Made by a program: the position numbers and the translations under genes. Positions 15,228 through 58,151 of a stretch of 64,000 nt of DNA are shown here, in pieces (position 1 is the first letter of the stretch; each line of letters begins with the position of its first letter). The notes below the pieces were generated by a model. That model had not been told where the DNA came from. It did no database searches and saw only the letters and a list, made by a program, of their open reading frames with translations. The DNA comes from Nesterenkonia muleiensis. Lineage in GTDB: Bacteria; Actinomycetota; Actinomycetes; Actinomycetales; Micrococcaceae. The stretch is taken from the NCBI RefSeq assembly GCF_003600155.1, contig NZ_QWLD01000014.1, forward strand, positions 62,001 to 126,000, written 5' to 3'.

Positions 15228-16472
15228 TCAGAGGCTGATGCGGTGCACCGGCAGGCTGGAGTCGGCAGGGATCGCCAACGACGACGCCCGCGCCCCTGAT
15301 GCCACCAGCTGCGCTCCCAGCGCGGCCACCATGGCCCCGTTGTCGGTGCACAGCGGGATCGGCGGGACGGTGAGCTCGATCCCGGCGGCGGCACAACGCT
15401 CGGCGAGCAGTCCGCGCAACCGCGAGTTGGCCGCCACTCCCCCGCCGAGCAGCAGAGTGTTCAGCCCGTGTTCCTGACAGGCGCGCACCGCTTTTGAGGT
15501 CAGCACATCCACCACAGCCTCCTGGAAGCTGGCGGCTATGTCTGCCACCGGCACCTCCAACCCGGCGAGCTGGAACTGTTCCACCGCGCGGGCCACCGCG
15601 GTCTTCAGCCCGGAGAAGGACCAGTTGTGCCGGTGCTTGCCGGGGTTTTCGGCGGTGCCTTCAAACTTGGGTCTGGTGAGGCCGCGGGGAAAGGCGAAAG
15701 CCGTGGGGTCGCCTTCGCCGGCGGCAGCGTCGATCTTGGGGCCGCCGGGGTAGCCCAGGCCGAGCAGCCGGGCGGTCTTGTCATAGGCCTCCCCGGCGGC
15801 GTCGTCGATCGTAGCGCCCAGCAGCTCGACATCATCGGTCAGCGAGCCGACCCGCAGAATCTCGGTGTGCCCCCCGGAGACCAGCAGCGCACCTATTGAG
15901 GGCGATGCTTGCGAGCGCCTGCGGCTTTCGCCAGTCTCCACCGGCTCGGAGCATCTGGTGCCGGCACCGGTCTTCGCTCGGCTCCATTGCCCAGGGAGGG
16001 CCGGGGAGGCAGTCGATGCTGTCGAGCCTGAGACGGCGGTGCCACCACTTTCTTCAGGTCCCGGCGCCCCGGGGTCGCCGCCGCCCAGGAGCCCCACCGC
16101 CACATGGGCGACCAGGTGGTTGATCCCGTAGAGGGGTTTGCCGGTGGCCAGCGCCAGGCCCTTCGCCGAGGAGAGGCCGACCATCAGCGCCCCGGCCAGA
16201 CCGGGACCTGCGGTGACCGCGATGGCATCGACCTCCTGCAGCTGCACCCCGGCAGTGGCCAACGCTTTGCGCAGCGTCGGGGTGAAGGCCTCCAGGTGGG
16301 CGCGGGCGGCGATCTCCGGGATCACCCCGCCGAAACGGACGTGCTCCTCCATGGAGGAGGCCACTTCATTGGCCAGCAGCCGGGTGCCGCGCACAATGCC
16401 GACCCCGGTTTCGTCACAGGAGGTCTCGATGCCCAGCACAAGCGGCTCAGCCGCAGCAGCGGTGGCGTTCAT
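15228..16472 (-). CDS. tsaD: tRNA N6-adenosine threonylcarbamoyltransferase TsaD, with internal insertion
   Basis: TsaD transfers threonylcarbamoyl to A37 of ANN-decoding tRNAs, together with TsaB and TsaE. The ASKHA-fold motifs are all present: [11 protein letters not shown] at the N-terminus, the metal-binding His119 and His123 in [19 protein letters not shown], and [14 protein letters not shown]. The protein is 414 residues, about 60 longer than usual. The extra length sits between residues 132 and 191, where related proteins go almost directly from the His motif to the SGGHT strand. That insertion contains a copy of the 55-bp hairpin element. Start 16472 is chosen for the GGGGAGG ribosome-binding site 6 nt upstream. 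Confidence 0.95.
15937..15991 (-). repeat. 55-bp hairpin element, copy inside tsaD
   Basis: Read on the minus strand, this has GAGCCGAGCG, then a stem GGTGC-CG-GCACC with a 2-nt loop, then CCGAG and GGTGGA in place of GATTGA. The spacing between parts is identical to the copies at 16916, 30809 and 57994/58039. It is translated as part of the insertion in TsaD. Confidence 0.7.
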
Positions 16473-16518: not shown

Positions 16519-17184
16519 TCATGATCCGCCCCCAAGTGCAGATTTCGCGTCGGCGATCGGGGTGATGGGGCCATCTGGCACCGGGTTCCGCAGGTCTGCC
16601 GCAGAGGAGCGCCCGCGCTGCTTGAGCCGTTTGCGCATGATCAGGGCGTCGCCGCCGTCGGGATAGTACTGCCGCCGCTGGCGAATGGTCTCGAAGCCGT
16701 TGCGCCGGTAGAGCCGCTGAGCTCCGGGGTTGTCCGCCCGAACCTCCAGCAGCAGGTCCTCAGCCCCACGGTGCCGCGACTCCTCCTCGATGAGTGCCAG
16801 CAGCCGGCTGCCCAGACCCTGGCCCTGGGCCTCCGGGGCCACCGCCAGGGTCTGCACATCGGCCAGCGGCAGCACGCACATCATCCCGGCGTAGGCAATA
16901 ATGCGCGGGACCGGGCCCGATTGAGGCGAGCGAAGAGTCGAGCGTGCTCGATCTGTTCCGAGGGGATTGAAGGTCGGCAGAGGCGACGTCTCTGCCACCC
17001 AGTACTTCCTGGTGGCACGGTGCGGCTCGAGGTTCGGCTCCGCCTGGGCGAGCTCGTCGAAGAAGAACCGCTCAGGCCAGGCGTCGTGCGGGAACAGTGT
17101 CTGCTCCAGCGCCAGCACCTCGGGCACATCGGCGCCAGTCATCTGCCGCACCGCAACCCCAGGTGAGGGCCAGGTGTTAGCCAC
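16519..17184 (-). CDS. rimI: Ribosomal-protein-alanine N-acetyltransferase RimI, with internal insertion
   Basis: This is a GNAT acetyltransferase that in other bacteria acetylates the N-terminus of ribosomal protein S18. The acetyl-CoA loop is [15 protein letters not shown] (residues 117-131), and the end of the fold shows [17 protein letters not shown]. The protein has 221 residues where about 150-165 is normal. Two things account for this: an insertion at about residues 66-93, between YWVAE and RIIAYAG, and a 40-residue C-terminal tail. The insertion is encoded by a copy of the hairpin element read antisense. The gene lies between tsaB and tsaD, as is usual in Actinobacteria. Confidence 0.9.
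16916..16970 (+). repeat. 55-bp hairpin element, copy inside rimI
   Basis: It starts CCCGATTGAG, has the stem TCGAGC (16938-16943), loop GT and GCTCGA (16946-16951), then CCGAG and a closing GATTGA. A second hairpin with a 9-bp stem follows directly (16976-16984 with 16988-16996). The element lies antisense to rimI. Confidence 0.75.
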
Positions 17185-30622: not shown

Positions 30623-31396
30623 TCAACTCATCGTACCTGAGCGGGGTTCCGGCCAGCGCGGCCCGTATCCGCGCAGCACTGCCCGGCGCGGAGTGCCGTC
30701 GGTGTCCTGGTCAGTCTCACTGAAGTCGGTCTGGATTCCCGCAACCATACCTGCTGCCTCCGATTCAGGAGTGCCGGCGCTGTGAGGCTCGGAGCAAAAT
30801 GAGCGGGACCCGATTGAGCCGCGCGGAACGTCGCGCTCGCGCGGCACATCCTGAGGCGATTGAGTTTCGCCCGCTCCGCTGGCAGCCGGTTTCAGGGGGC
30901 GATGACCAGCGTCAGCTGGCCGAGAGGCGAGTACGCTTCCCTGGCCGCTGGGACCAATACTGCTCAGCTCCAGGTCCAGCCAGGAGCCGCCGCTGCCAAC
31001 CAGCGCATGCTCCACCAGCCCACGGCCCCATTCGACCACGGTGACAGATCCCGGCAGGGTGGCCAGCAGGTCCAGGGACTCCAGCCCTTGGGCATCGGTC
31101 CGGTAGGCGTCCACGTGGACCAGATCTGGCCCGTCAGCGACGGCGCGGTGGATCCGCGAGAGCACGAAGGTCGGCGAGCTGATCTGGCCCTCCACCCCCA
31201 GCGCCTCCCCCAGCGCCTGGACGAAGGTGGTCTTACCTGCCCCAAGGCCGCCGGTGAGCACAACAAGGTCCCAGCGGCGCAGATGCTCAGCCAGATCATG
31301 GGCGAACTCTGCGGTGGCCTCAAGGTCAGCCAGTGTGGTCTCCCGCTGCCAGCTCTCGCCGGGCAGAGGCGCACCGAGTGAGTCGGCAGCGCTCAC
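30623..31396 (-). CDS. tsaE: t6A biosynthesis ATPase TsaE, with internal insertion
   Basis: TsaE is the P-loop ATPase that resets the TsaB-TsaD complex in tRNA t6A37 synthesis. Walker A is TGGLGAGKTTFVQAL (about residues 48-62). The switch region SSPTFVLSRIH and the VEWGRGLVEHAL motif are intact. The protein is 257 residues, against about 155-180 usually. The usual actinobacterial end (AVLRGYGPRW) is still present near residue 249, so the excess is an insertion at about residues 145-235, not a tail. That insertion contains an antisense copy of the hairpin element. The start overlaps the alr stop by ATGA. Confidence 0.93.
   Translation of the reverse strand: MSAADSLGAPLPGESWQRETTLADLEATAEFAHDLAEHLRRWDLVVLTGGLGAGKTTFVQALGEALGVEGQISSPTFVLSRIHRAVADGPDLVHVDAYRTDAQGLESLDLLATLPGSVTVVEWGRGLVEHALVGSGGSWLDLELSSIGPSGQGSVLASRPADAGHRPLKPAASGAGETQSPQDVPRERDVPRGSIGSRSFCSEPHSAGTPESEAAGMVAGIQTDFSETDQDTDGTPRRAVLRGYGPRWPEPRSGTMS
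30809..30863 (+). repeat. 55-bp hairpin element, copy inside tsaE
   Basis: It starts CCCGATTGAG, has a CGCGC-TC-GCGCG stem (30832-30843), then CTGAG and a closing GATTGA. Similarity to the intergenic copy at 58039 continues for about 55 bp further, both ending in AGCG(A/T)CAGCTG at the same distance. Confidence 0.75.
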
Positions 31397-53956: not shown

Positions 53957-55639
53957 TCATTCAGTGGAGTGGGATGCAGCAGCCGCGCGGGCAGCCTCGA
54001 GAGCCTCTGCGGCGGTAGAGGCAGTGAGAGCTGCCTCGGCAATGGCCTGGGCCTGCTCTTTGGTGTGGTGCAGCAGTTCAGCACGCACATCGGCCAGCGC
54101 TGCCGGCGCCATGGAAAGGGAGTTGACGCCGAGTCCGACCAGCACCACAGCCAGCAGCGGATCGGCGGCTGCTTCACCGCACACTCCCACTGGTTTGCCG
54201 GTCCTAGTGCCTGCGACGCCGACTTCACGGACCAGTTTGAGCACCGCGGGGTGCCAGGGGTCCTGAAGACCGGCAACTGACCCAAGTAGGCGGTCAGCGG
54301 CCATGGTGTACTGGGTGAGGTCATTGGTGCCGATGGAGGCGAAATCGGCGGTGGCCAGGATCTGCTCGGCCAACAGCGCCGAGGAGGGCACCTCGACCAT
54401 CACCCCGGCGGTCTTCAAACCGTGCTGGTGGGCGAATTTGGCGAAAGTCTCGGTCTCCTCGACCGTGGAGACCATCGGCGCCATCACCCACAAGTCTGCT
54501 TCGGTGGCCCGATCTGCCTCGGCGAGCGCGGTGAGCTGGTCGCGCAGCACTTCCTCATTGGTCAGCAGCGCGCGCAACCCCCGCAGGCCCAGTGCGGGGT
54601 TCTCCTCCTCGGCGTCGTTGAGGAACGGCAGCGGCTTATCAGCCCCGGCGTCCAGCGCCCTGACCACCACCTTCTTGCCGGGGAATGCCTCCAGCAGCTG
54701 CTGGTAGGACTGGCGCTGCTCAGCCACACTCGGCGCGGAGTCGGAGGACAGGAAGAGAAACTCCGTGCGGAACAGGCCCACACCTTCGGCTCCGAGCTCT
54801 ACGGCTTCAGCAGCGTGTTCGGGGTTGCCAAGATTCGCCAGCAGCGGGACCTCGGTGCCATCGGCCAGCGCCCCGTCGGTGATGGGGGCAGCCTGGGCAG
54901 CCTCGCGCTGGGCAATTCGTTCAGCAGCCCGGTCCTTCTGCTCTTGGGAGGGGTTGGTGACCACCTCCGAGCTGGCCGCATCGACGATCACCTCGTCTCC
55001 GTCGTTGAGCCCGGCGGCCTCCTTGGCACCGACCACAGCCGTGATGCCCTTGCCTCGGGCCAGGATTGCGGTGTGTGAGGTGGGACCGCCTTCGATGGTC
55101 ACCAGAGCCAGCACCTTGTCCAGGTCCAGCAGAGCGGTATCGGCCGGGGCGAGGTCCTGGGCGACCAGCACGAACGGGTGCCCGGGGTCCGGCACGCCGG
55201 GGGCCGGTTCACCGCGCAGTGCGGCAATGACCCGGATCGCCACGTCATGGAGATCGGCCGCGCGCTCTCCGAGATAGCCGCCCAACGCCTGCAGGGTCTC
55301 GGCGACCTCACCGAAGGCAGCGTGAACGGCGTACTCACCGGTGGTTCCGGCGGAGACCTGGGCCGCCACCGCCTCGGAGACTGTGGGGTCCTGAGCCATC
55401 ATCACCTGGGCCTCGAGGACTTCCTGGGCCTGCCCCCCGGCGGCCTGGCCGCGTGCAGTGAGGTCCGCGGCCACAGTCTGGATAGCCTCCTGGACCCGGG
55501 CAGTCTCCTCCTCCGGGGTCAGGGTGCTGGACTGCTCGGCCGGGACGGCTGGAGGCGGGGACATGCGTGCCACCGGGCCCACTGCCACCCCCTGACCGAT
55601 GCCGGTGCCCTTCAGCACGGACTGGGACGCAACGGCCAT
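53957..55639 (-). CDS. ptsI: PTS enzyme I (phosphoenolpyruvate-protein phosphotransferase)
   Basis: Enzyme I passes phosphate from PEP to HPr. The 560-residue protein has the phosphohistidine in GGPTSHTAILARGKGITAV, the PEP-binding FRTEFLFLSSDSAP, and the active cysteine region GKPVGVCGEAAADPLLAV near the C-terminus. The start lies 4 bp after the ptsH stop. Having ptsH and ptsI with the mannitol genes suggests that this locus supplies the general PTS proteins as well, although other copies may exist elsewhere. Confidence 0.96.
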   Translation of the reverse strand: MAVASQSVLKGTGIGQGVAVGPVARMSPPPAVPAEQSSTLTPEEETARVQEAIQTVAADLTARGQAAGGQAQEVLEAQVMMAQDPTVSEAVAAQVSAGTTGEYAVHAAFGEVAETLQALGGYLGERAADLHDVAIRVIAALRGEPAPGVPDPGHPFVLVAQDLAPADTALLDLDKVLALVTIEGGPTSHTAILARGKGITAVVGAKEAAGLNDGDEVIVDAASSEVVTNPSQEQKDRAAERIAQREAAQAAPITDGALADGTEVPLLANLGNPEHAAEAVELGAEGVGLFRTEFLFLSSDSAPSVAEQRQSYQQLLEAFPGKKVVVRALDAGADKPLPFLNDAEEENPALGLRGLRALLTNEEVLRDQLTALAEADRATEADLWVMAPMVSTVEETETFAKFAHQHGLKTAGVMVEVPSSALLAEQILATADFASIGTNDLTQYTMAADRLLGSVAGLQDPWHPAVLKLVREVGVAGTRTGKPVGVCGEAAADPLLAVVLVGLGVNSLSMAPAALADVRAELLHHTKEQAQAIAEAALTASTAAEALEAARAAAASHSTE

Positions 55640-55643
55640 GGGC

Positions 55644-55913
55644 TCAGGCCTCGTCGTGATCTGTGACGAGAAATTCCTCCAGCGTGTCCAGGGCAGACTC
55701 TGCGCCCTCTCCCTCGGCGGTAAGGGTGACCTCGTCGCCCTTGTCCACGCCCAGAGACATCACACCGAGGATCGAGGCCGCATTGACCGACTTCTCCCCC
55801 TTGGCGATGGTCACCTGAGCGCCGGTGCCCTGAGCGGCCTCGACGAACAGCTTGGCTGGACGAGCATGGAGCCCCTGGGAGGAGCCGACGCTGACGGTAC
55901 GGGTTGCGGTCAT
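55644..55913 (-). CDS. ptsH: PTS phosphocarrier protein HPr
   Basis: HPr relays phosphate from enzyme I to EIIA domains. The 89-residue protein begins TATRTVSVGSSQGLHARPA, with the phosphohistidine in GLHARP, and has the SVNAASILGVMSLGVDKGDEV segment around the usual Ser46 site. The ATG at 55913 has GGAAGG 9 nt upstream. The longer frame to 55970 is not supported. It heads the minus-strand unit ptsH-ptsI-mtlA-mtlD, divergent from mtlR. Confidence 0.95.
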   Translation of the reverse strand: MTATRTVSVGSSQGLHARPAKLFVEAAQGTGAQVTIAKGEKSVNAASILGVMSLGVDKGDEVTLTAEGEGAESALDTLEEFLVTDHDEA

Positions 55914-55997
55914 GGTGTTGCCTTCCGGTTGGCGGGTGTCTTCTGTCAATTCTCCCGTGATCTGGCACACATGGATAGTGTCTGGGAGTCACAGTTC

Positions 55998-56015
55998 TTT
56001 CCGCCCCTGCGGAAA
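55998..56015. promoter_or_regulatory. Inverted repeat in the ptsH-mtlR divergent promoter region
   Basis: TTTCCGC (55998-56004) and GCGGAAA (56009-56015) form a perfect 7-bp palindrome around CCCT. It lies in the 177-bp space between divergent ptsH and mtlR and is a candidate activator or operator site. Confidence 0.4.
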
Positions 56016-56090
56016 TTGTCGACCCAGCCCGGCTCAGCACGGAAAATTCTGGGTATCTCGTGGACACGGCAGTGCCATAGGGTGAGTGAC

Positions 56091-57995
56091 ATGCGCAGGC
56101 GTCCCGAAAAACTGGCCAGCCTTCTGCTGCGCGCAGAGGGGTGGACGACCGCCTCATCATTAGCCGATTCATTGGGCGTGACACCTCGCAGCATCCGGTC
56201 CTACATTGCGCAGCTGAACGCTCGCAGCGCTCCAGCGACCGCGGTGGAGTCCAGCCCCTCCGGCTACCGTGCGGACCGCGGCGTACTGGCCGGACTGCGG
56301 CGCGAGGCCGACGCCACCTCCCCCCAGGACCGGCTGCATTCGCTGGTCCGTGAGCTGCTGCACGCGCCCTCCGGGCTCGATATTCACCGCACCGCAGAGC
56401 GACTGCACGTCTCTGAGGCCACTGTGGAGTCAGATCTGGTCCGGGTGCGCGATCTGATCGGCAGCTCAGGACTTCAGCTGCAGCGCTCCGGCCCCCGGGT
56501 AGTGCTACTCGGCGATGAGCTTGCCCAGCGCCGGCTGGTGTCCAAGCTCGCGCACGACGAAATGGACGGCGGTTTCTCCGATCTGGCGAATCTGCGAGGC
56601 ACTGCCGGCCTGCAGTCGATCGACCCTGAGTCTTTCTCCCCGTTCAAGCAGGAGCTTGCCGCCACGCTTGGCGAACAGGGTTTTTATGTCAATGAGCTGG
56701 CGGTCGCCGATGTGATCCTGCATGTTGCCATAGCTGCTGACCGGGTATCCCAGGGCAGGGCCCTGTCCGGTACACACATCGACCCCTCAGCGCAGCAGCA
56801 GCAGATCGCCGATCTGCTCGACAACCTGGCCCTGCGGCACTTCGACACTCGAATGGGCGCCGGTGATCTGCACCATCTGGCCTCACTGGTGCTGACCCGG
56901 GCAGTGGCGCCGAAGGGCAGCACCAGCGAGGTCTCCCTGGACCCGATGATCGAATCCGTTGTCACCCGCGCTGTCGAGCACGCCGCTCATGAGTATCTGG
57001 TGGATATCGTTCACCCCGACTTCCTCAGGCGGCTGAGCCTGCATGTGCAGAACCTAGTGCACCGGGCCAAGGAGCAGGCCTGGTCACGGAACCCACTGAC
57101 AAAGTCCCTGAAATCGGCCTACCCCATGGTCTTCCAGGTGGCAGTGTCGATTGCCAGCCAACTCAGCGATCACCTGAGGCTGGACCTCGGCGACGACGAG
57201 ATCGCCTATATCGCCATGCACGTGGGCGGACGCCTTGAGCACAACCGCCGCAGTGATGCTGTGCTGACCGCAACCATCGTCTGTCCCGGCTACTACGAGC
57301 TTCATGAGCTGCTCCGCTCACGCATCGACCGGTCCCTGGGCTCCTCTGTGGAAGTCACCGCGGTGGAGACGGATATGACCCCGGACTGGGCAGAGATCAC
57401 CACTGACCTTGTGCTGACCACTGTCGAACCGCCCACACCGGATGAACGAACCGTGATGCTGCCGCCGCTGCTGACCGATGCAGACACCGAACGGATCGCT
57501 GCAGTAGCAGCCCGACGGCGCCGGGCCCGCCGTTTAGCCCGGCTGCGAGTGGAACTGGGGCACTACTTCCACCCGGATGCCTTCATCCGCCCCTTGACGG
57601 TCCGCAGCGAGGAGGAGGCGATCCGCGCCCTGGGCGCTTCACTGGTCGATCTGGGCGTGATTGATCAGGACTACATCGAACGTGCCGTCGCCCGCGAGCA
57701 GATGTCCTCCACAGCATTCACCGAGGCACTGGCAGTGCCCCATGCGCTGAAGATGACCGCTGGGCGCACCGTGCTTTCGGTGGGCATCGCAGACGGTTCA
57801 CTGCACTGGGGCGATTCCCGGGTGCAGTTCGTGGTGCTGGTGGCCTTCAGCGAGGAAGACCGGGAAGCATTTCAGACCATCTTCGAGCAGCTGGTGGAGG
57901 TCTTCAACGAAAGGGGCTCCGTTCAGCGCCTGCTGCGCCGGGGGACCGATTTCACCAGTTTTCTCGACGAGCTCACCGCCGTCATCGACGGCTGA
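56091..57995 (+). CDS. mtlR: BglG-family PTS-regulated transcriptional activator (MtlR-like)
   Basis: This 634-residue regulator has two N-terminal winged helices (VTPRSIRSYIAQLNA and LHVSEATVESDLVRVRDL). PTS regulation domains follow, with conserved histidines in DEIAYIAMHVGGRLEH and HLASLVLTRAV. Next come a IIB-like domain (ATIVCPGYYELHELL) and a C-terminal IIA domain with EALAVPHALKMT. This is the layout of DNA-binding MtlR activators, not of RNA antiterminators. ATG 56091 has AGGG 8 nt upstream; GTG 56082 is also possible. It is divergent from ptsH. Its TGA stop merges with the first unit of the hairpin array. Confidence 0.93.
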   Translation: MRRRPEKLASLLLRAEGWTTASSLADSLGVTPRSIRSYIAQLNARSAPATAVESSPSGYRADRGVLAGLRREADATSPQDRLHSLVRELLHAPSGLDIHRTAERLHVSEATVESDLVRVRDLIGSSGLQLQRSGPRVVLLGDELAQRRLVSKLAHDEMDGGFSDLANLRGTAGLQSIDPESFSPFKQELAATLGEQGFYVNELAVADVILHVAIAADRVSQGRALSGTHIDPSAQQQQIADLLDNLALRHFDTRMGAGDLHHLASLVLTRAVAPKGSTSEVSLDPMIESVVTRAVEHAAHEYLVDIVHPDFLRRLSLHVQNLVHRAKEQAWSRNPLTKSLKSAYPMVFQVAVSIASQLSDHLRLDLGDDEIAYIAMHVGGRLEHNRRSDAVLTATIVCPGYYELHELLRSRIDRSLGSSVEVTAVETDMTPDWAEITTDLVLTTVEPPTPDERTVMLPPLLTDADTERIAAVAARRRRARRLARLRVELGHYFHPDAFIRPLTVRSEEEAIRALGASLVDLGVIDQDYIERAVAREQMSSTAFTEALAVPHALKMTAGRTVLSVGIADGSLHWGDSRVQFVVLVAFSEEDREAFQTIFEQLVEVFNERGSVQRLLRRGTDFTSFLDELTAVIDG

Positions 57996-58151
57996 TTGAG
58001 CCGAGAGAGGACCGGCGCCTGCGCCGAGTCATCCGAGACCCGATTGAGCCGAGCGGAATGTTGCGCTTGCGCAAGCGTTCCCGAGGCGATTGAGGGTTGC
58101 CTGCTGCGCAGGCAGGCGATTGAAAGCCGTGAGCGTAAGCGACAGCTGATG
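57994..58151 (+). repeat. Tandem hairpin array bounded by GATTGA (mtlR-truA gap)
   Basis: GATTGA occurs at 57994, 58042, 58088 and 58118. Between successive copies lie three hairpins: CGGCGC-CT-GCGCCG (58013-58026), TTGCGC-TT-GCGCAA (58061-58074) and TGCCTGC-TGC-GCAGGCA (58098-58114). The second full unit (58039-58093) is 55 bp and aligns without gaps to the copies in tsaD, rimI and tsaE. The 3' end resembles the tsaE copy up to CAGCTG. Confidence 0.8.

Follow-up and report, generated by a model that had tools for sequence, protein, structure and literature searches.

Short hairpin repeats lie behind an mtlR-like regulator gene and inside tsaD, rimI and tsaE in a 64,000-nucleotide stretch of the Nesterenkonia muleiensis genome (contig NZ_QWLD01000014.1; here, the window). 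What kind of element are they, and how could such DNA enter conserved genes? The initial annotation, made from the letters alone, described five copies with a shared layout and differing but paired stems. Here, we report their extent, structure and distribution, and we weigh the explanations that they admit.

The array behind mtlR

The array reads as follows.

55599..57995, plus strand: mtlR-like regulator gene (open reading frame [ORF] with matches in 24 congeners; name from the initial annotation), with the first TGA of the element as its stop codon
57992..58039, plus strand: unit 1 of a type B element, the 48-nt form ending in GAGAC (cmsearch, 51.4 bits); its TGA doubles as the mtlR stop
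58040..58095, plus strand: unit 2, 56 nt, running from GATTGAG through the stem to CCGAGGCGATTGAGG (cmsearch, 77.9 bits; RNA and DNA minimum-energy folds)
58099..58113, plus strand: hairpin 3, GCCTGC-TGC-GCAGGC, between the GATTGA at 58088 and that at 58118 (sequence and folds; N. ebinurensis type B copies)
58118..58150 (extent approximate), plus strand: final GATTGA and closing part GTGAGCGTAAGCGAC, ending in GACAGCTGA (sequence; mtlR end compared in congeners)

GATTGA is present at all four positions reported for it (57994, 58042, 58088 and 58118). The repeated motifs and hairpins of the supposed tandem array are real, but the hairpin from 58118 on is a different one, and the array as a whole belongs to a composite type of element. 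At its 3' end, GACAGCTGA is an imperfect repeat of GACGGCTGA at the 5' end.

Three types were told apart by simple scripted rules, which are rough and let type B second units land in class C. Type A has one long hairpin and a second hairpin like GCGTGAGCGAAGCGACGC; type B, the form seen at mtlR, joins a 48-nt unit to a 56-nt unit, followed by a small hairpin and a closing part; type C comprises intergenic mosaics. Lengths range from 75 nt (the insert in an AccC-like gene) to ~160 nt (type B at mtlR). Twelve type B copies were read, 10 of them in N. ebinurensis and 2 in the window's genome, and several are decayed; 48-nt first units occur in 12 type B copies, and N. ebinurensis copies have a hairpin where hairpin 3 sits at mtlR. 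The mtlR end is free of the element at 23 of 25 loci compared among congeners, a comparison in which N. alkaliphila has other hairpins at that place and two loci have dissimilar ends. Plasmid sequences searched with the mtlR array gave no match.

Copies inside tsaD, rimI and tsaE

The other three copies and their host genes are as follows.

15228..16472, minus strand: tsaD host gene (ORF and orthologues; name from the initial annotation and from characteristic motifs)
15935..15990, minus strand: element copy in tsaD, in frame and on the sense strand (cmsearch, 48.2 bits)
16519..17184, minus strand: rimI-like acetyltransferase host gene (ORF and orthologues; name from the initial annotation)
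16917..16972, plus strand: element copy in rimI, with the gene on the minus strand and an open antisense frame (cmsearch, 69.1 bits)
30623..31396, minus strand: tsaE host gene (ORF; name from the initial annotation)
30810..30865, plus strand: element copy in tsaE, with the gene on the minus strand and an open antisense frame; ORF 30623-31396 runs through it (cmsearch, 62.3 bits)

A covariance model built on 20 units, among them the five copies named earlier, recovered exactly those five in the window at an E value of <1e-9 (next match, E 0.25).

A dispersed family

The initial annotation had proposed that a covariance search of this genome and its relatives would return many hits with conserved pairing if the family were real. 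It did so, in the window's genome (G000) and in related genomes, which makes this a dispersed family. The window's genome has 37 unit matches at an E value of 1e-3, where a composite copy counts as two. Unit matches were found in 7 of 29 congeners: N. ebinurensis MD2 (G029; at least 97, a lower bound because every one of the 97 candidates scored was a match), N. alkaliphila F10 (G015; 17), G001 and G004 (2 each), and G002, G013 and G025 (1 each). The remaining 22 congeners had no match among the 97 candidates scored per genome, under stricter filters and with some congener assemblies incomplete (62-82%). In a sample of 395 further genomes of the order, four (G053, G074, G173 and G227) had 1-3 matches at an E value of 1e-5 among the 14 candidates scored per genome, several of which resemble related two-hairpin repeats. 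Related two-hairpin GATTGAG repeats were seen in other families of the order (loci L235, L236, L237 and L075).

Motif GATTGAGNCGAGNG occurs 23 times in the window's genome, where its reversed pattern is absent. None of the 395 further genomes of the order, one congener without copies among them, has the motif more than three times. Further copies therefore exist, in numbers that the controls (the reversed pattern and other genomes, in place of shuffled sequence) do not equal. A match in G040 (L078) was dropped as apparently the end of dnaK. Of 25 exact pattern matches in wider genome contigs, the 18 outside Nesterenkonia (at most 21.6 bits) were taken as chance. Among viral contigs, 16 pattern matches were found (best, 25 bits) and none was accepted as a copy. 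In the open-licence literature, we found no description of this Nesterenkonia element.

Structure and covariation

The five stems named by the initial annotation are correct but are the inner half only: the whole helix has 12 bp, with a bulge of one base and a loop of 2 nt, and its geometry, from bulge and loop size to the unpaired flanks, is nearly the same across units. Its claim of paired changes in the stem held in the 20 build units and again in 85 units outside the model build. Among the former, 91.0% of cells pair (72.5% shuffled), with a covariation score of 0.468 (0.168 shuffled; reached in 0 of 500 shuffles). The 85 units come from N. ebinurensis and N. alkaliphila, and none was used to build the model; their alignment was fitted to it, however, and kinship among units can inflate shuffle tests. 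In these units, 87.1% of cells pair against 70.1% shuffled, double changes number 163 against 54.3 shuffled, and the score of 0.465 drops to 0.180 on shuffling and to no more than 0.107 on sliding. Pairs changed on both sides (11) were not above shuffles in this set (136 of 500).

Outside the helix, an outer stem was scored in 138 units, with a mean of 3.91 pairs with a unit's own partner against 3.09 when partners were swapped. None of 300 swaps reached the unswapped mean, the best giving 3.54; since types A and C are mixed in this control, type differences may supply part of the excess, and single columns are mostly near expectation. For type C, a wider outer stem is modestly supported (6.44 pairs against 5.88 swapped; best of 100 swaps, 6.26; n = 39). 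Among 107 units with the 56-nt core, opposed G.A or A.G occurs in 89-97 and opposed pyrimidines occur in 98-99. In the minimum-energy fold of the mtlR array, as RNA and as DNA, GATTGA stands opposite GATTGA between the outer stem and GCC/GGC, an arrangement absent from the DNA centroid. The opposed GATTGA strands thus seem to form a G.A/T.T internal loop under the outer stem, which would make GATTGA more than a spacer, and the opposed bases would form non-canonical pairs. The unit as one long imperfect hairpin (outer stem, GATTGA/GATTGA as G.A, A.G, T.T, T.T, G.A and A.G, then GCC/GGC and GA facing GA) is supported, not proven; the GCC/GGC and G.A columns hardly vary and so offer no proof by covariation.

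A variable stem sequence under a constant fold suggests recognition of the folded single strand. The initial annotation took the paired changes as a sign of selection or of copying based on structure, and they may reflect either. A serious rival, although an unlikely one, is palindrome-directed mutation, in which template switching or gene conversion inside the hairpins would produce the paired changes without recognition based on structure. Such mutation makes hairpins without selection, and by our own reading stem mismatches in two orthologous coding pairs (L162/L048 and L195/L148) indicate that pairing is not strictly kept in place. It accounts poorly, however, for the near-constant geometry of bulge, loop and unpaired flanks, and for the closing outer stem and opposed GATTGA strands that are also present.

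Insertions in conserved genes

Some copies are in-frame insertions in conserved genes whose relatives are without the insert, and one sense frame is the main open one. In an alignment of TsaD, ~30 amino acids around the element are a gap in all other rows (27 of 28 rows element-free). RimI is element-free in 17 of 18 rows, two of those rows coming from one genome, and its insert falls in a loop that is naturally variable in length. An AccC-like protein with an insert of 25 codons is element-free in seven of eight rows, these rows being drawn from 14 loci of which 6 were missed by the pattern.

A codon model was applied to 124 units from eight genomes. In-frame units between coding flanks of the same frame numbered 23, and 3 more had the same frame with a stop; 13 had both sides coding in different frames, 28 and 34 had one side coding, and 23 had neither, so that 101 of 124 units lie outside the strict in-frame class, from a test that overlooks some cases (in the window, the copies in rimI and tsaE do not pass it though their ORFs run through). 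In 30 ORFs, the reading frame continues through a unit without a stop. One sense frame accounts for 20 of these and another for 1, and the remaining 9 are antisense, with at least one of the nine (L158) reassignable to the sense frame. The share of 20 in 30 has a P value of 1.8e-6 if four open frames are equally likely and of 0.049 if sense accounts for half.

Ten of the 30 fused proteins, hand-picked as recognizable-looking, were all above the Pfam cut-off (biotin carboxylase, P-type ATPase, GH3, class I tRNA synthetase, SbcD/metallophosphatase, GcvP, IMPDH, citrate synthase, M18 peptidase and DUF255). Six of them have a domain match that runs across the element; in the other four (carboxylase, synthetase, GcvP and DUF255), the element lies between or behind domain matches.

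Encoded peptides

The main frame of N. ebinurensis type B encodes the zinc-ribbon-like peptide KCGACGAMSEATEGCPQCGQ or one close to it, exact in three copies. In N. ebinurensis, this four-cysteine peptide was seen at unrelated places (L200, L202, L205, L206 and L258), mostly in composite copies. Pfam zinc ribbons matched the type B peptide weakly, all below curated cut-offs, and the window's own copy was unmatched. Purifying selection on the peptide was considered and rejected: codon differences (17 synonymous and 37 nonsynonymous) gave no signal in nine pattern-caught copies, two of them from the window's genome and with L205 missed. The cysteine pairs are owed in part to the palindromes themselves.

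Sites, flanks and a putative mobilizing enzyme

Sites filled in two species are GcvP, mtlR, the end of an acetyltransferase-like gene (L190/L157), an ORF (L195/L148) and the dnaK-grpE spacer (L054/L173), with L064/L249 perhaps another; some of these two-species sites carry different element types. The TsaD, RimI and AccC-like sites are filled in one species only, and private and common sites thus coexist. The dnaK-grpE spacer holds an intergenic type C mosaic in both the window's genome (L054) and N. ebinurensis (L173), rearranged between the two. Another hairpin, like CTTCAGGCGTGAAGGC, recurs beside intergenic copies (L001, L008, L024 and L191) and may be a partner repeat family.

Some copies lie directly behind tRNA genes. 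One (L081, in G001, 1501-1629) follows a complete tRNA-Leu and precedes an apparent second tRNA that is without its 5' part, one (L070, in G004, 830-958) follows a tRNA-Arg gene, and one (L236, in G074) follows a tRNA-Lys-like stretch. The 3' ends of tRNAs may be a preferred place of copies.

Aligned 5' ends have GACGRCGCC or GAGACCC ahead of GATTGAG. Of 99 type A units, 35% have GACG no more than 14 nt away on the upstream side, compared with 1% for a control stretch; on the downstream side, the figures are 40% and 6%. It is also present at element-free sites (19 of 23 at mtlR; 3 of 7 in the AccC-like gene), and GACG is suggested as the insertion target.

The initial annotation had pointed to a REP-associated tyrosine transposase as the possible partner. 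This expectation failed: Y1_Tnp (PF01797) is absent from the window's genome and from 29 of 30 Nesterenkonia genomes, and no unit matched in the one genome of the genus that does carry a Y1 (G006; 79% complete). A reverse transcriptase was considered as the copying agent and rejected; it has matches in the window's genome, N. alkaliphila and G001 and none in N. ebinurensis, the richest genome, and so is not a general mobilizer of today. Clustering of flanking ORFs gave 106 clusters, none of which occurred in more than five loci, and no transposase-like protein recurred beside copies; the five-locus cluster comprises ABC transporter ATPases by our own reading.

These flanks bear on the possibility of an ordinary MITE, with terminal inverted repeats moved by a DD(E/D) transposase that an insertion sequence not yet seen would supply. 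In a few places, copies are flanked by direct repeats (GACGGCTGA/GACAGCTGA at mtlR; GATGCCTGA twice in L086), which would suit it. Yet the conspicuous end motifs are direct and not inverted, target duplication is weak, with some suggestive single cases and no overall excess (five offsets, at 2, 5, 21, 48 and 93 of 200), and the flanks examined hold no recurrent transposase-like ORF, Y1 being the sole transposase family searched. We consider a MITE improbable.

Still less probable is a functional RNA structure (a terminator, an attenuator or a 3' untranslated region stabilizer) kept by selection at each site. The mtlR array does fold better as RNA than shuffles of it (z = -2.27; 4 of 200 shuffles as good; as DNA, z = -1.95), several copies lie at gene ends or behind tRNA genes, and the type C copy in the dnaK-grpE spacer occurs in two species. 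Selection for such a role would, however, have to reckon with open-frame insertions in unrelated genes in both orientations and with element-free sites in congeners, and no Rfam match reached gathering scores.

Least probable of all is a REP/BIME family moved by RAYT (the IS200/IS605-type Y1 transposase), a reading that fits short palindromes, intergenic mosaics and the REPs known inside genes (PMC3733652) but not carriers without any Y1 transposase, aligned ends without a GTAG tag, and units of 48-56 nt with a 12-bp bulged stem.

Proposed mechanism and significance

We favor, at a probability of roughly 0.64, a non-autonomous, modular, hairpin-forming mobile element of Nesterenkonia that works like the Rickettsia palindromic element (RPE). 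A trans-acting enzyme, not of the Y1/RAYT kind, would recognize the folded single strand and would insert the element beside GACG-like targets. An insertion would survive and be inherited if it preserved the frame and landed in a loop, and recombination between units would give rise to composite forms (type B) and intergenic ones (type C).

A bolder proposal, which we hold as tentative and on balance doubtful, is that of a new class of gene-invading DNA. It would be recognized by fold and not by sequence, through a hairpin with GATTGA/GATTGA G.A/T.T loops whose stem is free to change; it would insert beside GACG; and its open main frame would spread ready-made peptides, including the zinc-ribbon-like one in type B, into housekeeping proteins.

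To our knowledge, how RPE-like elements enter genes has been an open question since their description in 2000, in part because Rickettsia and Wolbachia are obligate intracellular bacteria. Nesterenkonia is free-living and culturable. With filled and empty sites, and with old common and private ones, it makes target choice, dependence on the fold and effects on host proteins approachable in ordinary culture. The insertions also bear on how conserved enzymes tolerate inserts of ~25-30 residues.

Comparison with known systems

The initial annotation had likened the repeats, in style, to REP or Rickettsia palindromic elements. The likeness to RPEs goes beyond style, to in-frame insertions in conserved genes, but that to REP/RAYT is not supported (no Y1 in carriers, no GTAG in the aligned ends).

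With REP/BIME and RAYT, the element shares a mosaic of short palindromes; the mark of that system, however, is GTAG at one end of a 20- to 40-bp palindrome, and the Nesterenkonia ends are without GTAG and the carriers without Y1. With PARCELs (palindromic amphipathic repeat coding elements) it shares palindromic coding DNA, but these are described as tandem repeat protein domains, largely in membrane proteins, and the Nesterenkonia copies are mostly single inserts in unrelated proteins (PMC2996958).

REPs tagged with CGTC include RPE-4 and RPE-6, were found without a dedicated transposase and lie inside genes in some species; Actinobacteria is not one of the five phyla named for them (PMC3733652). 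In the Nesterenkonia element, GACG, which reads as CGTC on the opposite strand, is likewise enriched on either side, and no dedicated transposase was found. The CGTC-tagged REPs, however, have stems of 8-9 bp, loops mostly of 4-5 nt and CCA-like tails, in contrast to a 12-bp bulged stem and a 2-nt loop here (PMC3733652).

RPEs and Wolbachia palindromic repeats are described as short palindromic DNA with many chromosomal copies, in frame in conserved protein genes as well as intergenic, and RPEs as encoding a conserved peptide in one frame (PMC2229807, PMC10969869, PMC3767692). In Rickettsia, differing types can occupy one orthologous site (PMC3767692), and a table gives 12-bp terminal inverted repeats for RPEs (PMC2229807). 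In the Nesterenkonia element, an outer stem has support, and the motifs that stand out at the ends are repeated in direct orientation. Some of its copies lie directly behind tRNA genes; RPEs are known inside RNA genes as well. The RPE kind measures ~100-150 bp; our element, palindromic and multi-copy as well, is partly shorter (75 to ~160 nt). It differs further in its actinobacterial host, which is not one of the Rickettsiales, in its make-up of several hairpins that end in directly repeated GATTGA strands, and in its composite and intergenic forms. It is most like RPE-1 to RPE-3, and also like the Wolbachia palindromic repeats: palindromic, multi-copy, in frame and intergenic, with one main peptide frame. 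We would file it with the protein-coding palindromic elements, as RPE-like in its probable working, with no claim of common descent, on a likeness drawn from published descriptions of RPEs.
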